Shown here: piece after piece, positions 90 through 20,129 of the stretch
Layout: the number at the start of each line of letters is the position of its first letter
Numbering within the stretch: the first letter of the stretch is position 1
From: a virus
IMG/VR virus record: IMGVR_UViG_3300042691_004320
Span: 1-20,535 of that record
Length of the DNA stretch: 20,535 bases
Reading direction: 5' to 3' (one strand)
The notes under the pieces: model-generated
What the model saw: only the letters and a program-made list of their open reading frames with translations
What the model was told of the DNA's origin: nothing
Database searches by the model: none
Made by a program: the position numbers and the translations under genes

Positions 90-269
90 TTAATTAAGCC
101 AAGTTTTATTAGCGTGACTAATATCCTCGTCAAACTTGCGGATCATTGCCTGCATGGTCAACTTCCTGACCATCTTTTGATTCTTCTTGACCCACTCCAC
201 CGCCTCGTCAAAAGACTGCGCGTCTTTCAATCCATCCTCAAAATATTCCCATGCCTCCTTCTCGGTCAT
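90..269 (-). CDS. Small charged helical protein (59 aa), unknown function
   Basis: The ATG at 269 overlaps the TGA of the upstream nuclease gene (ATGA), and the frame ends with TAA at 90-92. The 59-residue product begins MTEKEAWEYFEDGLKDA. It is rich in Glu, Asp and Lys, has no Cys, Pro or hydrophobic membrane stretch, and is probably all alpha-helical. A well-formed Shine-Dalgarno-like AAAAAC/AGG is not evident, so translational coupling to the nuclease is the likely way it is expressed. I do not recognise a family. Its position between two nuclease-type genes suggests a DNA-metabolism accessory or a small regulator, but that is inference. A 115-residue frame on the other strand covers the same bases and is a shadow. 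Confidence 0.65.
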   Translation of the reverse strand: MTEKEAWEYFEDGLKDAQSFDEAVEWVKKNQKMVRKLTMQAMIRKFDEDISHANKTWLN

Positions 270-649
270 AGGTTTTTAAATACACGCCAACCACCTCCTG
301 TCGACGGACAAAGCTTGGTTGTTAACGACCTGCATTTTGATATTGGCAACAGCCAAAACAAATCATCATTCATTCCCCAACAGGCAACGTAATCCACACC
401 ACTAATAGCGCGCTTTGGTATATTGAAGCCATTACCAGTACTTGTGGTAAACCGATACTTGGTTCGTCCAGGCTCTACAGCCTGCGCGGTCTTAACCTGG
501 ATGCGATAAAACTTATTGTTCTTCTCGGCCACCACATCATACCCAGCGAAATCTTCATAAGGTGTCAACACGTTGTACCCACAGCGCAATAGCGCGCCAG
601 TAACGCGAGCCACCCCTACAGCACCTACTTGTCGTGAACTTAATTTCAT
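266..649 (-). CDS. PD-(D/E)XK-fold nuclease-like protein
   Basis: The 127-residue product resembles the small PD-(D/E)XK endonuclease family related to archaeal Holliday junction resolvases and intron endonucleases (the PDDEXK_5 type, from memory). Residues 10-30 form the first helix and a GYNVLTP strand. Asp38 in GYDVV and Gln51-Val-Lys53 in RIQVKTA give the D-x(n)-Q-x-K core. One oddity: family members I recall have Gly-Glu in the first helix, whereas this protein has GVARVTG, so the helix-1 Glu seems replaced by Val. It would cut or resolve DNA in the cytoplasm, possibly in genome processing. The start at 649 has AGGAG ten bases upstream. The stop overlaps the next start (ATGA). It begins only 36 bases from the divergent plus-strand gene. 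Confidence 0.7.
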   Translation of the reverse strand: MKLSSRQVGAVGVARVTGALLRCGYNVLTPYEDFAGYDVVAEKNNKFYRIQVKTAQAVEPGRTKYRFTTSTGNGFNIPKRAISGVDYVACWGMNDDLFWLLPISKCRSLTTKLCPSTGGGWRVFKNL

Positions 650-651
650 TG

Positions 652-679
652 TTGACGTACTCCTAATTTAGCAGATACT
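652..679 (+). promoter_or_regulatory. Sigma70-like promoter for the plus-strand gene
   Basis: TTGACG (652-657, 5 of 6 to the -35 consensus) is followed by a 16-base spacer and GATACT (674-679, 4 of 6 to TATAAT, keeping the key A2 and T6). Normal spacing would start the transcript near 685-687, which is at the ATG (686). The message could therefore be leaderless, in line with the lack of any Shine-Dalgarno before this start. It lies in the 36-base gap between divergent genes. Confidence 0.5.
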
Positions 680-685
680 AGAAAA

Positions 686-1075
686 ATGAAAATAAGAAAC
701 ACACTTATCGCGCTGGCCCTCTCTACTACGTTTACATGTCTCGCGGATGACGGCTTGAACCAAGAAATTGTGGCTGCCGTCTACAGGGGTAGCAGCACGC
801 ATGTGCTTGCTGGGAATTCCGCTGTGGGTGCTGGTGGCGCGCTCGTTCGAGCAGGAGGAACACTCCTCACTCCTGAGGGTGCTTACGTCCAAGCTGGTGA
901 CAGCTTCCTCAAGCCTGGTGGAGGTGCGGTTGTTCGCGCTGGCAGTAGCTACGTTGGAACGGACAGCGCGCTTGTTAACGTTGGTAGCGGACTGAATCTT
1001 ATTCTTATTGGCTCGGACGGCGCGAGCATTGGGGCTGGCAATACTATTCTTCGACCCCTTTTCCTTCCGCACTAG
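686..1075 (+). CDS. Secreted Gly/Ala-rich repeat protein on the opposite strand
   Basis: This 129-residue protein is the only convincing plus-strand gene. Residues 1-21 form a signal peptide: charged MKIRN, a hydrophobic core, then a signal peptidase I-like CLA site. There is no lipobox. Mature residues from about 38 to 120 are a degenerate repeat of roughly 8 residues rich in Gly, Ala, Val and Ser (AGNSAVGAG, ALVRAGGT, VVRAGSSYVG, ASIGAGN), the sort of pattern expected of a beta-solenoid or roll. It has no enzyme motif. It is convergent with the endolysin and divergent from the nuclease. Its own promoter suggests expression apart from the late operon, as for a moron acting in the periplasm or at the host surface. 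Host-surface alteration or superinfection exclusion is only a guess. Frames of 139 aa (minus) and 75 aa (plus) in this stretch are shadows. Confidence 0.7.
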   Translation: MKIRNTLIALALSTTFTCLADDGLNQEIVAAVYRGSSTHVLAGNSAVGAGGALVRAGGTLLTPEGAYVQAGDSFLKPGGGAVVRAGSSYVGTDSALVNVGSGLNLILIGSDGASIGAGNTILRPLFLPH

Positions 1076-1632
1076 CCTACCCCCCACATCGCCTGCCGAT
1101 TTCTTATCCTGTTCTCAAGACCAGCGATAAACTTCTTTCGGCTTGCGTCGTTATAGGCCAATTCGTATTCGTAATCCAATTGTGCTTGACTCATCGCCTG
1201 CATTAACGCGCGTGGGTGAACTTTGTTGATTGCTTCCAAGGTTTTCGGACCAATCTTGCCATCCACATCAACCTTAACCTTGAGAGCATTCAGCCCTTTC
1301 TGGATAAACCTTGTTGCACCGCCCATCCCTCTATTGAACGCGAGATCTTGCGTGAATGCTTGCATGACCTCAGGCAATTTGGATACGAGTGGGCTGGTGT
1401 ATTCTTTGATATAGCGCGCTGCCTCTTTCGCTCTTTCCTCCGCTGGCAACTCTGAGAGCTTTTTGAATTCTTCTGGATGGTATTTGTCATTAATCCCAGC
1501 TATCTCATAGCTTCCACCACCATCTCCGTCTGGCAACTTGTAGATCGCCAAATTGCCGTTGTGATCGAACCTACCCTCAAGCTTGACTGTCTCCATTGCT
1601 GCTTCAAGCAGCCTATTGTCAGAACCATTCAT
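1072..1632 (-). CDS. Endolysin, GH108-type N-acetylmuramidase with peptidoglycan-binding domain
   Basis: The 186-residue product matches the pattern of phage endolysins of the glycoside hydrolase 108 class with a C-terminal PG_binding_3-like part. Glu19 in KLEGRF sits where the catalytic Glu is expected. DGDGGGSYEIAGINDKYHP at 35-53 is the Gly-rich segment that follows it in this subgroup, and FNRG (99-102) and VDGKIGPKT (123-131) mark the binding and helical half. It would cleave host murein glycan strands at lysis. No signal peptide is visible, so export would need a holin. A virion-associated muramidase role is also possible because it follows the ejection-protein genes. The start is 12 bases from the upstream stop. 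Its TAG stop overlaps the plus-strand gene's stop in a CTAG palindrome. Confidence 0.82.
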   Translation of the reverse strand: MNGSDNRLLEAAMETVKLEGRFDHNGNLAIYKLPDGDGGGSYEIAGINDKYHPEEFKKLSELPAEERAKEAARYIKEYTSPLVSKLPEVMQAFTQDLAFNRGMGGATRFIQKGLNALKVKVDVDGKIGPKTLEAINKVHPRALMQAMSQAQLDYEYELAYNDASRKKFIAGLENRIRNRQAMWGVG

Positions 1633-7265: not shown

Positions 7266-7652
7266 TTAAGCTAATGCCTTTCTCATAAATTTGTAATAAT
7301 CGTACTCCTTTGGTTGTCCTAAACGTTTAAAAATGATTCGCTTGCGTGGTCCGAATCGATCCAACAGGATCAATAGCAAGCCTTTGAGTGGGGCTACCGA
7401 CTCAGCATTTCTAATACCACTAGTGGCACACAAGTCAACAAAGATATTGTCTCCATGCTCGTCGTGGACGTAGTGACCTACTTCAGAGCCACTATTGACG
7501 CACCTAGCCAGGGCAACGCCTAGAATCTCATCATTCCTGTTCCTTAATGTACCCATAAGTCCCTGCTTATCAAACCATGCCACCCACTCCCTAAAGTTAG
7601 GCCACATCGCCTCGGAAACGCCACTTTTCTCAAGAAACTCTACCTGGGTCAT
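7266..7652 (-). CDS. GNAT acetyltransferase-like protein beside the tail nozzle gene
   Basis: The 128-residue protein has the strand-helix pattern of a GNAT fold: an N-terminal helical part (1-35), GVALARCV (45-52) as a central strand, IFVDLCAT (70-77) as the next strand, then a helix ending [18 protein letters not shown] and the terminal Tyr-rich helix [12 protein letters not shown]. The classic Q/R-x-x-G-x-G/A acetyl-CoA loop is not clear, so catalysis is uncertain. T7 has a GNAT-like internal virion protein (gp13) in the same place between the nozzle and the core proteins, which supports a structural or assembly role. The start overlaps the nozzle stop (ATGA), so translation is probably coupled. 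Confidence 0.5.
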
Positions 7653-9505
7653 ATGTTTTGCTGAATCTGAATTGGATCTGGATTCGCTGCCATAATGACC
7701 CCGCGAATGGAGAGCTTCCTACTAGCAGCCTCAACCTTCATCTTGATATTGCGCCACTTGTCGTATGACCTAAGACTATCCGCCCTGCGCTTGACAACCT
7801 TCGCGCTTAGTGTGGCTGGGAGTGTAAATGGGAGCGTTAATCCGTCAGGCGAGGTTGTGTCAACATTCGTGCCAAGAATAATGTCGTTTCCATCCGTATC
7901 CCTACGAATGCTTATGGTTGCGTTGGTAGATCCAGAATTGAAAAATTCAACCTCGTAGTGCGATCCGTACTTCAGCGCAAAGCGATCATCAAATTCATAC
8001 GCCTTAGTGACCACCCTGCTCGTATAGCCAGTACCAAAATCTTGGAACCCTGTATTGATGTCAACTGAATCTGAATCCTTATAATCCGTAAGGTGACCAA
8101 TCCTTGAGTTGGTTGTGCCTATGCAAAGTTTGATTGTGTTCGTGGTGAATCCAGAAGTAAAGCTTGTCTCAACCATCCTTGCTGCTGCTACTTCCCACAA
8201 GCCTTCGAAGCAATTGAAGATTGAGTTGTACACCAATATGTGGCTTGGCTTGGTTGCCGAATCCAGAGGTATGGCGAGGAGATATCGATTGTTATGGAAT
8301 GTGGCATTGCAAGTGTCGACGAAGCTTCTGTTAATCCTTGCGATGATGTCCTTAACTGGCTCGCTTATTGTGAGGCCAACTGTAGAGAAGTCATCCGCCA
8401 AAGACCTTGAGATTGATCGTATGCCGTCATTCGCCAAGAAGAACACATCCTTGTTTACGAGGGCAACTGATCTGCCTGCGATACAACCGATCCTGTTCGA
8501 AATTGTCTGAACAGTCCACTCCGCTGCGCTATTGGTAAGCGACAACACGCTTGTTCCTGATGTCACAGTCGTGCTTGGCGTGACATCAACCAGGTAGATC
8601 TTGTTCCTCTTAAACACGATGATTTGGAATCCGTAGAAGGGCTGGATCGCAATAATATCCTCACCATCGTCACCACCCACAATGATTGAATTTGTAGTCT
8701 TCCATATCTCTGGATCGAGAATGTCAGAGGCGTAAAGAGTGTTGCGACTCTCACCTGTGCCTACGGCAAAAAGCCGATTCGTAAATGACTTGATTAAACG
8801 AAGTCCAGATGGAGCCAATTGAGTAGAAATGTTTGCTGTAGCTGTTGCTCCGCTTCCTCCTCCGCCAGTAATTGTAACTGATGGGGCAGTCAAGTATCCA
8901 GACCCAGCGTTGGTTACTGTTATTGCTGTAACTTTATTTGATACAACAGTTGCAATTGCGGTTGCTGTTGTTCCATATCCAGCAGTTGGAGTTCCAATTG
9001 TTACAGTTGGAACGCTTGTATATCCACTTCCATCGTTTGTAACAGTAATTGATGCAATGCTAGTACCCTGGCGATAATTGCTTGTTCCATCGGTAAACTG
9101 GAGATTGCTTGATCCGTCCGTCCAAAATAATTTGTTGTTTAGCTGGGCAAACTCAATTTGATTTGTGGAATTTGCAAATGTTCCTCCAGTAGTCGAGAAC
9201 GTGCTTGAGCTTGTGTTGTATTTATAAAGAGATCCGCCTGTGGCAACAATAATTTCCTCAACGTTGGGCGTATCGAAATAGAACATTCCCTGAACTGTGC
9301 TTGCCGTAGAAAAACTTGTTGAAACTGTCTCAATGCCCTGGCGAGTCTGAAGGTTGCCATTGGGCGAAATGGTCATGTTAAGCAGCTCAGAGGCTGCGTT
9401 ATCCGCAATAAGATTGGGGCTAATGCCAGATACCTGGCCACCATCAAAACTTGGCGTGACAGCTACCGACAGTACATCATCTGTTGCATCCGTGAAGTAC
9501 GGCAT
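7649..9505 (-). CDS. Tail nozzle protein (tail tubular protein B-like)
   Basis: The 618-residue protein follows the adaptor gene and has the features of podovirus nozzle proteins (T7 gp12 / P22 gp10 class). The N-terminus has [18 protein letters not shown]. It has repeated beta-strand motifs with F/Y-W patches, RLFAVG and DPEIW around 235-275, and [13 protein letters not shown] near 355-370. These fit a beta-propeller that forms the hexameric tip below the adaptor. Residues 149-226 carry two copies of a Gly-rich module with GSGYxxxPxVxI that interrupts the propeller-like sequence. No processing or enzyme motif is seen. The 3' end overlaps the next gene by four bases. The start at 9505 lacks a Shine-Dalgarno and lies four bases after the adaptor stop. 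Confidence 0.8.
8828..9061 (-). repeat. Two GSGY-type beta modules inside the nozzle gene
   Basis: Residues 149-186 and 191-226 of the nozzle protein are two copies of a module with the pattern I-x-V-T-N-x-G-S-G-Y-x-x-x-P-x-V-T-I followed by a Gly/Ala/Thr run. The first reads [19 protein letters not shown] and the second [19 protein letters not shown]. At DNA level the copies are similar but diverged. Similar modules occur in many phage surface proteins, from memory. Confidence 0.8.
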
Positions 9506-10487: not shown

Positions 10488-11573
10488 TTATACATTGTAA
10501 TATGGAATTTGATATGCAGTAGATCCAATTCTAATTCTGATGTATCCTACTGGAAGTGCCGTGAGTGCAGTTGCTGCACCATTTGCTCCAATTGTTGTTT
10601 TTGTTGAAAGAGTTGACCCAAAGGCAATTTCTCCGCTTAATTGAGAAGTTGCTCCATTTCCAATTGAAATTGAGTTTGATATTGTTCCATTACTAACATT
10701 TGATGATGCTCCAATGCAAACGTTTCCTGTTCCAGTTGTAATTGAATTTCCAGCAAGATATCCAATTGCCGTGTTTAAAATTCCAGTTGTATTGTCTCCT
10801 AATGCAGCATATCCAAACGCACTATTGTTACTTCCAGAAGTATTTGAATCAAGAACTCCAACTCCAAATGCAGAATTAAATGATCCTGTATTATTAACTA
10901 AAAGAGATTGTTCCCCAAATGCGCTATTAAAGCTTCCGCTTGTGTTCGCTTGTAGCGCGCTATTACCAACTCCAGCATTTAAACCTCCAGTTGTATTGCT
11001 GCCAAGCGTATTGAGCCCAAAGGCAACATTAGCTTGACCTGCTCCTGTTCCAATTGTGCGTCCAGCTATTGTTGCATTGTTGGAGGATATGAAATTATTA
11101 ATAGTTCCAGCCGTAAAATTGCATGAAGTTCCAATCGATCCAGAATAGGTTCCGCCAGTAAGTGTTCCAGTAAGAGTACTCGCTGTTAATGTCTGAATTG
11201 TTCCAGCCGTAAGATTTGCAGATCCTCCAATCGATCCAGTAAATGTACCAGTACTTGAATTGATTAATCCAGAGTATGTGCCACCAGTAAGATTGCTTGT
11301 CAGCGTGCTTGCCGTTAAGGTCTGAACTGTCCCATTGGTAATATTGGCAGCAGTAGATGTAGTCGTTCCTGCCGTAAGTGTTGGGATTGTTCCAGTCGTG
11401 CTATTAAACGTTCCAATCGTCCCCCTAGTGCAGGAAAGCGTGCCAATCGTGCCAGAGTTGATGCTTAATGCGCACTCAGGGTTGATTGCAGCGTCAGCAA
11501 TCAAAGCGTTAAGCTTTGTATTGGTTACTGTGTCGTTTGCACCAAAGCTGGTTCCTGCTGTAAAATTCGGCAT
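10488..11573 (-). CDS. Tail fibre / adhesin-like virion appendage with YadA-type repeats
   Basis: The 361-residue protein opens MPNFTAGTSFGANDTVTNTK, a start I know from many phage appendage proteins (an FTAGTxF...LNALIADA anchor). Residues 41-155 are Thr/Gly/Ser-rich tandem repeats. Residues 181-265 hold five 17-residue units of the form NxAFGxxxLxxNTTGx, the left-handed beta-roll repeat of trimeric autotransporter head domains, which suggests a trimeric receptor-binding spike. The C-terminus ends GYIRIRIGSTAYQIPYYNV, a hydrophobic strand seen on such proteins. A strong AGGAG lies seven bases before the ATG, inside the previous stop region. Repeats are AT-rich (about 36% GC over 10681-10860). 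It lies upstream of the tail adaptor. Confidence 0.78.
   Translation of the reverse strand: MPNFTAGTSFGANDTVTNTKLNALIADAAINPECALSINSGTIGTLSCTRGTIGTFNSTTGTIPTLTAGTTTSTAANITNGTVQTLTASTLTSNLTGGTYSGLINSSTGTFTGSIGGSANLTAGTIQTLTASTLTGTLTGGTYSGSIGTSCNFTAGTINNFISSNNATIAGRTIGTGAGQANVAFGLNTLGSNTTGGLNAGVGNSALQANTSGSFNSAFGEQSLLVNNTGSFNSAFGVGVLDSNTSGSNNSAFGYAALGDNTTGILNTAIGYLAGNSITTGTGNVCIGASSNVSNGTISNSISIGNGATSQLSGEIAFGSTLSTKTTIGANGAATALTALPVGYIRIRIGSTAYQIPYYNV
10779..11033 (-). repeat. Five 51-bp tandem repeats (YadA-like 17-residue units) in the fibre gene
   Basis: The five units start with ANVAFGLNTL, LNAGVGNSAL, FNSAFGEQSL, FNSAFGVGVL and NNSAFGYAAL, each 17 residues with N at position 2, G at 6, L at 10 and N at 12-13. 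A sixth partial unit, LNTAIGYLAG, follows. Copy-number change by slippage or recombination would shorten or lengthen the spike. Confidence 0.8.
11136..11333 (-). repeat. Two longer repeats in the N-terminal fibre shaft
   Basis: Residues 81-103 and 124-146 of the fibre share the pattern GTxQTLTASTLTxxLTGGTYSG, separated by about 20 residues. Shorter GTIGT-type units precede them at residues 41-72. The shaft is therefore built from at least two repeat families distinct from the YadA-like head repeats. Confidence 0.7.
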
Positions 11574-11581
11574 ATTTTCTC

Positions 11582-11806
11582 CTAGTTGTTCCTATTTTTA
11601 ATTACGTCCCAAGCCATTGAACATATAAGGCCAATAACGCCAGAGAGGGCTAGTATCTTAGTCCTTAGATGCTCCAGCGCATTAACCTTATTAGCAATGT
11701 CTGCGTAGTTTGCAAGTGACCTTTCGACCATCGAATAAAGCTGAACCTGACGCTCCTCCATCCTGGCGAGCTTCAATTCTATGTTCCAAACTTGGTCTTC
11801 GCTCAT
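11582..11806 (-). CDS. Small coiled-coil protein with C-terminal membrane anchor (XhlA-like)
   Basis: The 74-residue protein has a charged helical N-terminal region (MSEDQVWNIELKLARMEERQ, to about residue 48) followed by one hydrophobic helix at about 52-66 (ILALSGVIGLICSMAWDVI) and a short basic tail. This layout is that of XhlA/hemolysin-type phage lysis accessory proteins, although C-tail-anchored coiled coils have other uses. Its ATG overlaps the TGA of the preceding 41-residue lipoprotein (ATGA), so the two are likely made together and may form a lysis or envelope cassette. A 69-residue frame at 11691-11900 is out of phase and is a shadow. Confidence 0.65.
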   Translation of the reverse strand: MSEDQVWNIELKLARMEERQVQLYSMVERSLANYADIANKVNALEHLRTKILALSGVIGLICSMAWDVIKNRNN

Positions 11807-11928
11807 TTGGTTTGGCCCAGGTCGGATGCAGCTCCCATGTCCGAATAGATTGGAAGTGAATTGTTATCAATCTTGCTTGGCGAGCAGGAGGCAAGGGCAA
11901 GGCAGAGGATGATTAGCGGGATGTTCAT
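11803..11928 (-). CDS. Small lipoprotein (41 aa), possible o-spanin
   Basis: The ATG at 11928 shares a base with the upstream TGA (TGATG) and the gene ends with TGA at 11803, overlapping the next start. The product begins MNIPLIILCLALASC: a hydrophobic signal followed by the lipobox LASC, with Cys15 as the lipidated residue. The mature part is only about 27 residues, rich in Ser, Asp and Pro. This is the size and form of Rz1-like outer-membrane spanin subunits. Its partner would be the coiled-coil membrane protein that follows. Spanin function is inferred; another envelope lipoprotein is possible. Confidence 0.7.
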   Translation of the reverse strand: MNIPLIILCLALASCSPSKIDNNSLPIYSDMGAASDLGQTK

Positions 11929-12374
11929 CAAGCTGCGGTGATGGTGATGCTAGGAGTCCAGCCAGAGGTTGGTATGTAGTCAACATTTGTGCTTGGGTTT
12001 GTTGCGACCGCATCAAGAGTTATTCCTTCATTATCCCACAAATGCATTATTTGCCAGTTTGAACCATTGATATAATAATTTGACTGTTCAAAGTCAAGCA
12101 ATGTAGCGTTTGGCCCAAGAAAAAAGTATAATTCATTACTGGATTCGACTTGAGGCAAGCTATAAAAAGGAGCTAGACCAGCATACCACTCATACTCAGA
12201 TACAGTCCCAATAAAATCTTCAACGCCTTGTGCATTATATGTTCCAGAAGATACTCCACCAGAACCAACAACCACTATTGATGATGTTGATGCAACTGGT
12301 AATCCGCTGGGTGCAACCCCACCACCAACCTTGCGGATGTTTTGCACTCCTAGTGCTAGAGATAGTCTTGGCAT
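11928..12374 (-). CDS. Small virion-type protein with beta-rich surface module (148 aa)
   Basis: The start is taken at the ATG 12374 (MPRLSLALGVQNIRKVGGG); a TTG five codons upstream gives a longer but less likely form. The N-terminal MPRLSLALG...GGGxAPSGLPVAST is a leader I associate with phage small virion proteins. The rest is beta-rich, with SSGTYNAQ, an aromatic-rich middle, YYINGSNWQI and a closing PTSGWTPSITI. That layout resembles the insert in the tail adaptor (NGTY, then W-containing strands), so both may carry the same surface module. GC is about 36% over 12061-12180. No membrane or enzyme motif is present. Its exact place in the virion is unknown. Confidence 0.6.
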   Translation of the reverse strand: MPRLSLALGVQNIRKVGGGVAPSGLPVASTSSIVVVGSGGVSSGTYNAQGVEDFIGTVSEYEWYAGLAPFYSLPQVESSNELYFFLGPNATLLDFEQSNYYINGSNWQIMHLWDNEGITLDAVATNPSTNVDYIPTSGWTPSITITAA

Positions 12375-12393
12375 AAAATCACAATGCAATCAC

Positions 12394-12419
12394 CCGCCAA
12401 GGGGTAGAACCTTTGGCGG
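12394..12419 (-). other. GC-rich hairpin in the 62-base spacer before 11928-12374
   Basis: CCGCCAA (12394-12400) pairs with TTGGCGG (12413-12419) as a perfect 7-bp stem. It extends by two G-C pairs around a one-base bulge. On the minus-strand transcript no U-tract follows, so it is not a standard intrinsic terminator. A 15-codon frame beginning MIQATTPP overlaps it, starting at the TAATG end of the preceding gene. I do not call that frame a gene. Confidence 0.45.
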
Positions 12420-12436
12420 TGTGGTTGCTTGAATCA

Positions 12437-12676
12437 TTAACCAGCTATGTATCCAATCACCCTGCCAGTTCCAGCCGTATAGCTGTCGAACTCGCCATAG
12501 ATGATGTTGCCTGAACCAATCGTAATGCCTGTCAGAGTACCATCATATTTACCGCTAATCGCGCTAAACGTGGTATCTGCAAGCATCTGGATCGCCCAGT
12601 AGCCAGCGGGAGCTGTTCCAGTTGTCCCTACGGAAAATCCGTATTGAGCCTGGAATTTATCTAATGCGCGTGACAT
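12437..12676 (-). CDS. Small beta-rich virion-type protein (79 aa)
   Basis: The 79-residue product MSRALDKFQAQYGF... is Gly/Thr-rich with alternating hydrophobic strands (GYWAIQML, GTLTGITIG, NIIYGEFD, GRVIGYIAG), so a small beta-sandwich or barrel is likely. There is no signal peptide. Its ATG overlaps the previous stop (TAATG), tying it to the 64-residue gene before it. Several small proteins coded just after the capsid gene in such phages decorate the head or complete the tail, and this may be one of them. I do not recognise a specific family. Confidence 0.6.
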   Translation of the reverse strand: MSRALDKFQAQYGFSVGTTGTAPAGYWAIQMLADTTFSAISGKYDGTLTGITIGSGNIIYGEFDSYTAGTGRVIGYIAG

Positions 12677-19253: not shown

Positions 19254-19637
19254 TTATTTAAAGAAATCAGAAAGTTTTGAAATGTACTTCATCTGTTCTT
19301 CTGTAGCACTTTTACCGCTAGTATCACCAGTAAACAACCTTGCTGCTATGGTTGCCCTTCTATCATCTTCACTTGCATTTTTGTATGTAGTATTATCAAG
19401 GGCTTTATTTTGTTCTTCAGTAAGATCAAAATTTGGTTTTTCTATTTGACCAGTACGAATGAGTATTCTTGTTGCCTCATTCCTGATTACCGCATCCTTT
19501 TGTTGTTCGTTAAGGTTCGAGTATGGGTTAAGGATAATTTTATTGTCTTCGGCTGCCATGCCAGTTACATTTTTATTCTTATTGAAATAATCCATTTCGC
19601 TTGGAAATGGTTGTCTTAACAAGTCGTATGGATTCAT
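19254..19637 (-). CDS. Conserved-type phage protein between lysis genes and portal (127 aa)
   Basis: The 127-residue protein contains VTGMAAEDNKIILNPYSNLNEQQ (24-46, here quoted in part as VTGMAAEDNKIILNPYS) and later LTEEQNKALDNTTY, IAARLFTGDTSG and ATEEQMKYISKL. I recall this arrangement from unannotated genes near terminase and portal in other podoviruses, so it is a genuine conserved family without known role. The product is charged, helical, and lacks membrane or signal segments. Its ATG overlaps the stop of the o-spanin-like gene (ATGA). It is AT-rich: the line 19381-19440 is only 27% GC. Confidence 0.65.
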   Translation of the reverse strand: MNPYDLLRQPFPSEMDYFNKNKNVTGMAAEDNKIILNPYSNLNEQQKDAVIRNEATRILIRTGQIEKPNFDLTEEQNKALDNTTYKNASEDDRRATIAARLFTGDTSGKSATEEQMKYISKLSDFFK

Positions 19638-19873
19638 TTGTTGCGCTCAGTCTTTAGTTCATACGAAAGATCGTTGACAGCATTCAAGGCTTTCCTCGCC
19701 CATTCGCGCGTACCAGGAGTACCGCGACGAATCTCAATGTAGTTTGGATCTTTCATCAGCTCCTCAACTATCCCTGTCGTGTGGGTTACTGGTGTCGTTG
19801 TTGCGCAACCACCAAGACTCACCGCGCAGATCACGCTCAATAGCGTCGCGATTATCGCGCCACTCGTTCTCAA
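19634..19873 (-). CDS. Lipoprotein, o-spanin (Rz1-like)
   Basis: In this frame a hydrophobic signal (SGAIIATLLSVICAVSLGGC) ends in the lipobox SLGGC, followed by about 56 mature residues including helical EWARKALNAVNDLSYELK. This fits an outer-membrane spanin subunit that fuses membranes at lysis. The open frame runs back to 19978, but the extra residues have no signal-like character and overlap two genes. I therefore propose the TTG at 19873 (79 aa, Cys23), which puts a short basic N-terminus (LRTSG) before the hydrophobic core. It overlaps the 62-residue gene in another frame, as Rz and Rz1 do. Confidence 0.65.
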   Translation of the reverse strand: MRTSGAIIATLLSVICAVSLGGCATTTPVTHTTGIVEELMKDPNYIEIRRGTPGTREWARKALNAVNDLSYELKTERNK

Positions 19874-19952
19874 AGTTCTGAGTGCGCTTTTGCTTCCAAC
19901 CTGGAATGATGCGAAAGACGGCTGCGATGATCTCAAGGATTGCACGCAGCAC
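19764..19952 (-). CDS. Short membrane-anchored protein, i-spanin-like
   Basis: The 62-residue product starts at GTG 19952, six bases after the holin-like gene's stop. Residues 2-18 (LRAILEIIAAVFRIIPGW) are a hydrophobic or amphipathic helix suited to a membrane anchor, and the remainder is charged and helical (ENEWRDNRDAIERDLRGESWW). The order holin-like, then anchor plus helix, then an overlapping lipoprotein in another frame is the holin-Rz-Rz1 layout. It is short for an i-spanin, and the anchor is short for a full transmembrane span, so confidence is moderate. An amphipathic membrane-binding regulator is an alternative. No Shine-Dalgarno is obvious, so coupling to the holin-like gene is likely. 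Confidence 0.5.
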   Translation of the reverse strand: MLRAILEIIAAVFRIIPGWKQKRTQNFENEWRDNRDAIERDLRGESWWLRNNDTSNPHDRDS

Positions 19953-19958
19953 AAAAGA

Positions 19959-20129
19959 TTATTTAATATTGAGCCCAACTGTCTTCAAGAAATTAACAAT
20001 CTTTTCTAGGAAGCTGTCATCAGCGGGGGTGGGTGTCAGTTTGACAATAATGCGAGCAGCAAGAACGATACCGCCTACGGCAGCAACGATCTCTTGCCAG
20101 TTTGAAGTAATCCAATTCCAAATATTCAT
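19959..20129 (-). CDS. Holin-like small membrane protein (56 aa)
   Basis: The 56-residue protein begins MNIWNWITSNWQEIVAAVGG. One transmembrane helix spans about residues 12-30 (QEIVAAVGGIVLAARIIVK), followed by the turn LTPTPADD and an amphipathic helix ending LKTVGLNIK. I know this TPTPxDD-type protein from many phage genomes, where it lies near lysis genes, and a holin or antiholin role is the usual guess. It has an excellent AGGAGGA seven bases before its ATG, placed inside the last codons of terminase, so it is made at high level. It heads the spanin-like pair. Holin activity is inferred, not shown. Confidence 0.7.
   Translation of the reverse strand: MNIWNWITSNWQEIVAAVGGIVLAARIIVKLTPTPADDSFLEKIVNFLKTVGLNIK

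Follow-up and report, generated by a model that had tools for sequence, protein, structure and literature searches.

The 20,535-nucleotide (nt) viral sequence IMGVR_UViG_3300042691_004320 (hereafter the window) carries on its plus strand, at positions 686-1075, a lone gene that is reversed relative to its two neighbours, a nuclease gene and an endolysin gene, and encodes a small protein with a signal peptide and Gly/Ala-rich repeats. Comparison of homologous loci shows that this gene is a cassette in which a fixed promoter and signal peptide precede a mature domain that is exchanged between relatives. By the same comparison of sequences, the gene is shown to be real, its start architecture to be conserved, the adjacent nuclease to be mobile and alternative mature types to coexist in samples. 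An earlier note on this DNA had described the promoter, the export signal and the repeats but did not include the hypervariable mature domain or the adjacent homing-type nuclease. The protein appears to represent a new exported phage family that has no recognised relatives and in which the entire mature part is exchanged while promoter and export signal stay fixed, a pattern expected of genes in phage-phage or phage-host conflict. This exchange deserves further attention. The features of the region are as follows.

266-649, minus strand: nuclease of the PD-(D/E)XK type (PF11645), similar to Protein Data Bank (PDB) entry 2OST (profile match, discordant history)
652-657, plus strand: -35 element TTGACG, with a TTGAC core invariant in all 86 distinct upstream sequences and at all homologous loci
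660-664, minus strand: AGGAG, the Shine-Dalgarno (SD) sequence of the nuclease, inside the spacer of the plus-strand promoter
674-679, plus strand: -10 element GATACT, the last T of which is position -7 from the ATG and invariant
686-688, plus strand: ATG start codon, predicted to be leaderless from its fixed distance to TTGAC in relatives and a genome-wide enrichment of that distance
686-745, plus strand: signal peptide of 20 residues, with the cleavage site judged by eye, without a SignalP run
686-1075, plus strand: the lone gene, for a predicted exported repeat protein, with its stop codon at 1073-1075 (sequence and comparison)
746-1072, plus strand: mature protein of 109 residues, assigned to type T2 of at least 15 (AlphaFold2, periodicity, type clustering)
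1072-1075, both strands: CTAG, in which the lone gene and the endolysin gene, which converge, have overlapping stop codons (sequence)
1072-1632, minus strand: endolysin with a PG_binding_3 domain, related to holin-associated muramidase (profile matches), its similarity tracking the type of the lone gene

Conservation of the gene and exchange of its mature domain

Between the window and its close relatives, the ratio of nonsynonymous to synonymous substitution rates (dN/dS) in the frame of the lone gene is 0.15-0.28, indicating purifying selection and identifying the plus-strand open reading frame (ORF) as a real gene. A longer ORF on the opposite strand (668-1087, 139 amino acids) might on account of its length be taken for the true gene, with the plus-strand ORF as its shadow; however, its dN/dS is about 0.9-1.85, its frame is broken in most other types, and it is on the plus strand that the signal peptide and the repeats are conserved. 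Substitution pattern and broken frame together refute the antisense ORF as a gene, and its probability is negligible. A second antisense frame, different from that of the listed ORF, also gives low dN/dS values because its wobble positions coincide with those of the plus frame.

An initial scan of viral sequences yielded 17 homologous loci, which fell at three levels of identity (about 90%, 75-79% and 31%), and scans with the endolysin and with the nuclease yielded 80 loci each, some contigs being common to both. The start of the nuclease could be placed in 160 loci, and in 159 of these the gap between the two genes holds an intact reversed ORF at the same spacing; the sole exception (L068) is truncated. 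Removal of identical copies left 102 distinct cassettes, all of them reversed between the same nuclease and endolysin, with 94 distinct proteins and 86 distinct 60-nt upstream sequences. Position and orientation are kept down to about 31% identity, and the gene converges on the endolysin gene, the stop codons overlapping by 4 nt in 27 of the 35 loci measured. The separate transcription unit on the opposite strand with its own promoter, and the head-on geometry with the late genes, both proposed in the earlier note, are supported by comparison among the relatives. The finding that the note named as a refutation, homologues that share the strand of the late genes and have an ordinary leader, did not occur in these loci. 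The proposal that the gene is a moron stands in part: the gene has its own promoter and the opposite orientation, but it occupies the same place in every relative and is intact in 159 of 160 loci, which rules out a sporadic insert; it is a gene conserved throughout the group. Outside this group, no homologues were found in named phages by tblastn with three types, nor in bacterial genomes by a pattern scan with the window clade, where a search for capsid relatives also came back empty. In Pfam, PHROGs, NCBIfam and PADLOC, the protein had no match to a described defence, exclusion or phage family that passed a curated threshold.

Clustering of the 94 distinct proteins at 60% identity resolves 15 mature types with an average identity of 0.26 between types; three of these are singletons, so more types probably exist. 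The signal peptide, in contrast, is close to MKAITMITLTAMLMASVMAED in most of the group, and its DNA is nearly constant there across unrelated mature types. The clade of the window has a different signal peptide, MKIRNTLIALALSTTFTCLA/DD in the window itself, followed by the Gly/Ala-rich repeats. Loci that are nearly identical on both sides can carry unrelated mature parts: in pairs such as L097/L076, L082/L181 and L141/L150, identity is 91-100% for the DNA of the nuclease, promoter and signal peptide and 87-96% for the endolysin, whereas the aligned identity of the mature DNA drops to 61-67%. Identity breaks off at about nt 60 of the gene, where the signal peptide is predicted to be cleaved, and resumes at the stop codon. 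Synonymous divergence (dS) of the signal DNA is lower than that of the mature part in all types compared, as expected for a homogenised flank. In most types, comparison of members shows strong purifying selection on the mature part (dN/dS 0.02-0.18); the higher values of T2 and T4 probably arise because the pooled pairs mix subclades without re-alignment. Two or more distinct sequences were available from 22 samples, and in 20 of these they belonged to different types, up to five in a sample; as sampling was by similarity to the group, these counts are not population frequencies.

A signal peptide is recognisable by eye in all types, so that an envelope location is predicted, and together with the repeats it supports the exported repeat protein of the earlier note. 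No canonical lipobox was found in the protein, and a lipoprotein was rejected. The types have in common a repeat of 14 residues (half-period 7), and this period is the top or near-top lag in nearly every one of them. With close homologues only, AlphaFold2 modelled the mature protein at a mean confidence (pLDDT) of 44; with 35 diverse mature sequences the pLDDT was 86 and the predicted TM-score (pTM) 0.76, and the model consists of an N-terminal helix followed by about 11 short β-strands. This is the fold that may be expected for the mature protein, and the 14-residue period and short strands, read without coordinates, would fit either a β-solenoid or an antiparallel meander. Foldseek searches gave no match, the lowest E values being 1.1 in the PDB and 0.53 in BFVD, and nothing significant was found for the protein in libraries of solved structures and folds.

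Promoter spacing and the predicted leaderless start

The sequence elements described in the earlier note are all present in the window: TTGACG and GATACT separated by 16 nt, an ATG at the expected start of transcription after the six bases AGAAAA, and no SD sequence before it, ahead of the signal peptide and the Gly/Ala repeats. An in-frame stop codon at 653-655 leaves no useful start codon upstream of 686, and no RNA element or riboswitch was found in the region. The promoter match by itself is at chance level: 9 of 12 positions agree, and 1.5 kb contains 3 such matches where shuffled sequences contain 1.6 +/- 1.4, so the case for the promoter rests on the comparison of relatives. In every one of the 86 distinct upstream sequences, which amount to about 11 effective sequences once similar ones are down-weighted, TTGAC precedes the ATG by 34, 35 or 36 nt and position -7 is T. 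The spacer and the -10 element vary among them, the latter taking forms such as GAGACT, GATATT and TATACT. An SD-like 4-mer occurs in 5 of the 86 upstream sequences and 1 of 26 genomes, compared with about 18% of random windows. On the other strand, the exact AGGAG form of the nuclease SD sequence was seen in the clade of the window, and TTGAC is kept in a clade whose nuclease starts at a different codon.

The same spacing is not confined to the lone gene. Across 25 related genomes, TTGAC is found 34-36 nt before an ATG in 58 cases in total, against a mean of 2.5 per other single distance, a ratio that is descriptive and not a test because the lone gene supplies a large share of the hits and the genomes are related. 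Besides the lone gene, the hits belong to four or more conserved families of unrelated genes, with members on both strands, which suggests that leaderless or nearly leaderless initiation is general in these phages. The protein products of the other families begin with MAVPVMRD, MSELTEQVRAYF, M[SN]NT..TEASAV and MAINSRRKGAAGERE (e.g. in L022 (G002) and at homologous positions). Most simply, the genes next to promoters in these phages would have mRNAs with little or no leader, and transcription of the lone gene is predicted to start at or within 1-2 nt of the ATG at 686. As a prediction, the leaderless mRNA proposed in the earlier note therefore gains support from positional comparison, but it does not appear to be special to this gene.

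The nearest named terminases are those of Akkermansia phages (35-37%), and one of four endolysin matches is from an Akkermansia phage; a host in the Verrucomicrobiota is possible. Akkermansia and another member of the Verrucomicrobia have been listed as SD-scarce (PMC10783764). The spacing pattern suggests that leaderless initiation may be a general mode of expression in an uncultured phage group, possibly one infecting Verrucomicrobiota.

Neighbouring genes and possible functions

The neighbouring nuclease matches PF11645 (E 3.7e-15) and PDB entry 2OST (E 8.9e-6), which we take to be the homing endonuclease I-Ssp6803I, and the active-site motif YD...IQVK is kept in the nuclease sequences read. 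Its history is discordant with that of the phage backbone: in three genomes (G018, G022, G033) the nuclease is 97-98% identical (dN 0.02-0.03) where backbone proteins are about 72-85% identical, while in two others (G004, G014) it is 74-82% identical against a backbone of mostly 88-99%. When identity is plotted along the genomes, the anomaly coincides with the nuclease gene, which is therefore horizontally mobile between lineages and possibly encodes a free-standing homing endonuclease. Free-standing nucleases at boundaries of genetic exchange have been documented in phages (PMC10448857, PMC2988022).

After control for the backbone in 21 genomes, the type of the lone gene correlates with endolysin similarity (r 0.54, reached in 0 of 500 permutations) and not with the nuclease (r -0.05). 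Likewise, type is shared in 72% of pairs whose endolysin DNA is 93-96% identical, compared with 34% for the nuclease. Type T3 is also found with endolysins whose DNA identity is as low as about 70%. For two genes on the far side of the endolysin, r with type is 0.42-0.56, in only 7-9 genomes, and the primase is weakly correlated (r 0.23). Apart from these genes, no correlation of type with tail fibre, tail or virion genes was found, and matching of type to them was rejected: partial r is 0.08 and not significant both for a candidate tail fibre (one fibre gene, 15 genomes) and for another tail gene. That the link is one-sided is consistent with exchange points located towards the promoter, or with a functional connection between the protein and the endolysin. 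As a separate observation, the fibre-like gene and the next small genes at 10488-12676 (minus strand) give way to other genes in close relatives; this second hypervariable region is independent of the lone-gene type.

We tentatively favour, at somewhat less than an even chance, an exported envelope factor for phage-phage competition that is under diversifying selection, its function being hypothetical. A host-type sigma-70 promoter would start transcription at or beside the AUG to give a leaderless or nearly leaderless mRNA, and the signal peptide, nearly constant in most members, would export a small β-repeat protein to the envelope of the infected cell. There the protein may act in superinfection exclusion or related competition, rare types gaining an advantage. 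Recombination at the conserved flanks would carry alternative mature types from phage to phage, possibly with the aid of the adjacent homing-type nuclease, whose role in swapping is likewise hypothetical. Several points weigh against this proposal: the exclusion activity itself is hypothetical; receptor-matched exclusion is not supported, as type does not track either tail gene; type does track the endolysin, which may be simple linkage but would also fit a role in lysis; and the protein has no membrane anchor or lipobox, whereas many exclusion proteins are membrane-bound. A more elaborate version, in which type-specific exclusion, nuclease-driven exchange of types in co-infection and leaderless mRNA form a phage self/non-self system, seems improbable.

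The main rival, which is rather unlikely although not remote, is that the protein acts in the periplasm to modulate the neighbouring endolysin or the timing of lysis, with types co-evolving with the endolysin and the head-on layout coupling shut-off of the lone gene to endolysin expression. The endolysin correlation, its absence for the nuclease and the convergent genes with overlapping stop codons agree with such a partnership, but T3 accompanies strongly diverged endolysins, nearly identical endolysins occur with different types (L097/L076, L082/L181), and hitch-hiking on one side of an exchange point would explain the correlation equally well. An unlikely alternative is a modifier of the host surface unrelated to phage competition, which would coat or alter the infected cell, for instance against grazing or for aggregation, its diversity being driven by the host or the predators of the host. 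The signal peptide, missing membrane anchor, repeat fold, allelic diversity and several types per sample are all compatible with this, yet a benefit in a short lytic infection is hard to see, and no lysogeny genes were recognised among the proteins checked in a partial survey. It is no more probable that the diversity is a by-product without special selection on type, the mobile nuclease converting the flank (promoter and signal sequence) while old divergence of the mature part is kept since heterology blocks conversion. Mobility of the nuclease gene, the low dS of the signal DNA and the independence of type and nuclease are in line with such conversion; however, many types coexist in single samples, and in swapped pairs identity resumes at the endolysin end, so that the mature domain itself was replaced.

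Elsewhere in the window, the product of 7649-9505 (minus strand) has at residues about 144-228 a Gly-rich insertion which, in the manner of a mobile domain, has matches in numerous PHROG families of tail fibre and virion proteins that are unrelated to one another. The small protein of 19634-19978 (minus strand), whose start codon is uncertain, has a lipoprotein-like sequence, VSLGGCATTTP, and is possibly spanin-like. In related genomes, a small opposite-strand module lying between the primase/helicase genes and the gene for the terminase small subunit includes a gene for a DUF7227 protein (L022:5674-6378, minus strand; PF23872, E 4e-85).

Comparison with known systems

An mRNA starting at the AUG, with a promoter directly before it, is known for PY54 cI, PY54 cro and lambda cI, the 5' ends of the two PY54 transcripts having been mapped (PMC4488713). 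The lone gene resembles these in its promoter position, but they encode repressors and have mapped 5' ends, whereas here the product is a predicted exported protein and the start comes from prediction. No relevant papers linking leaderless expression to exclusion proteins were found. The nuclease is a sequence relative of I-Ssp6803I and, like free-standing phage homing endonucleases, is mobile and lies beside an exchanged gene; it differs in that no intron was seen and its homing is putative.

T4 Imm and Sp, HK97 gp15, P22 SieA and phage morons share with the lone gene small size, an envelope role (predicted here) and an own promoter, but the present protein matches no sequence family, keeps a conserved position, is predicted to be soluble and occurs as hypervariable types. 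A further likeness is to the exported protein CwpV of Clostridioides difficile, which likewise combines a constant export part with alternative repeat domains, five in its case, and blocks the injection of phage DNA in the manner of superinfection exclusion (PMC4737114). CwpV is host-encoded, anchored in the cell wall and phase-variable, whereas the lone gene is phage-encoded and its product is small and has no anchor; the comparison is one of design, with no sequence relation claimed. The CwpV precedent indicates that a constant export part with alternative repeat domains can work.
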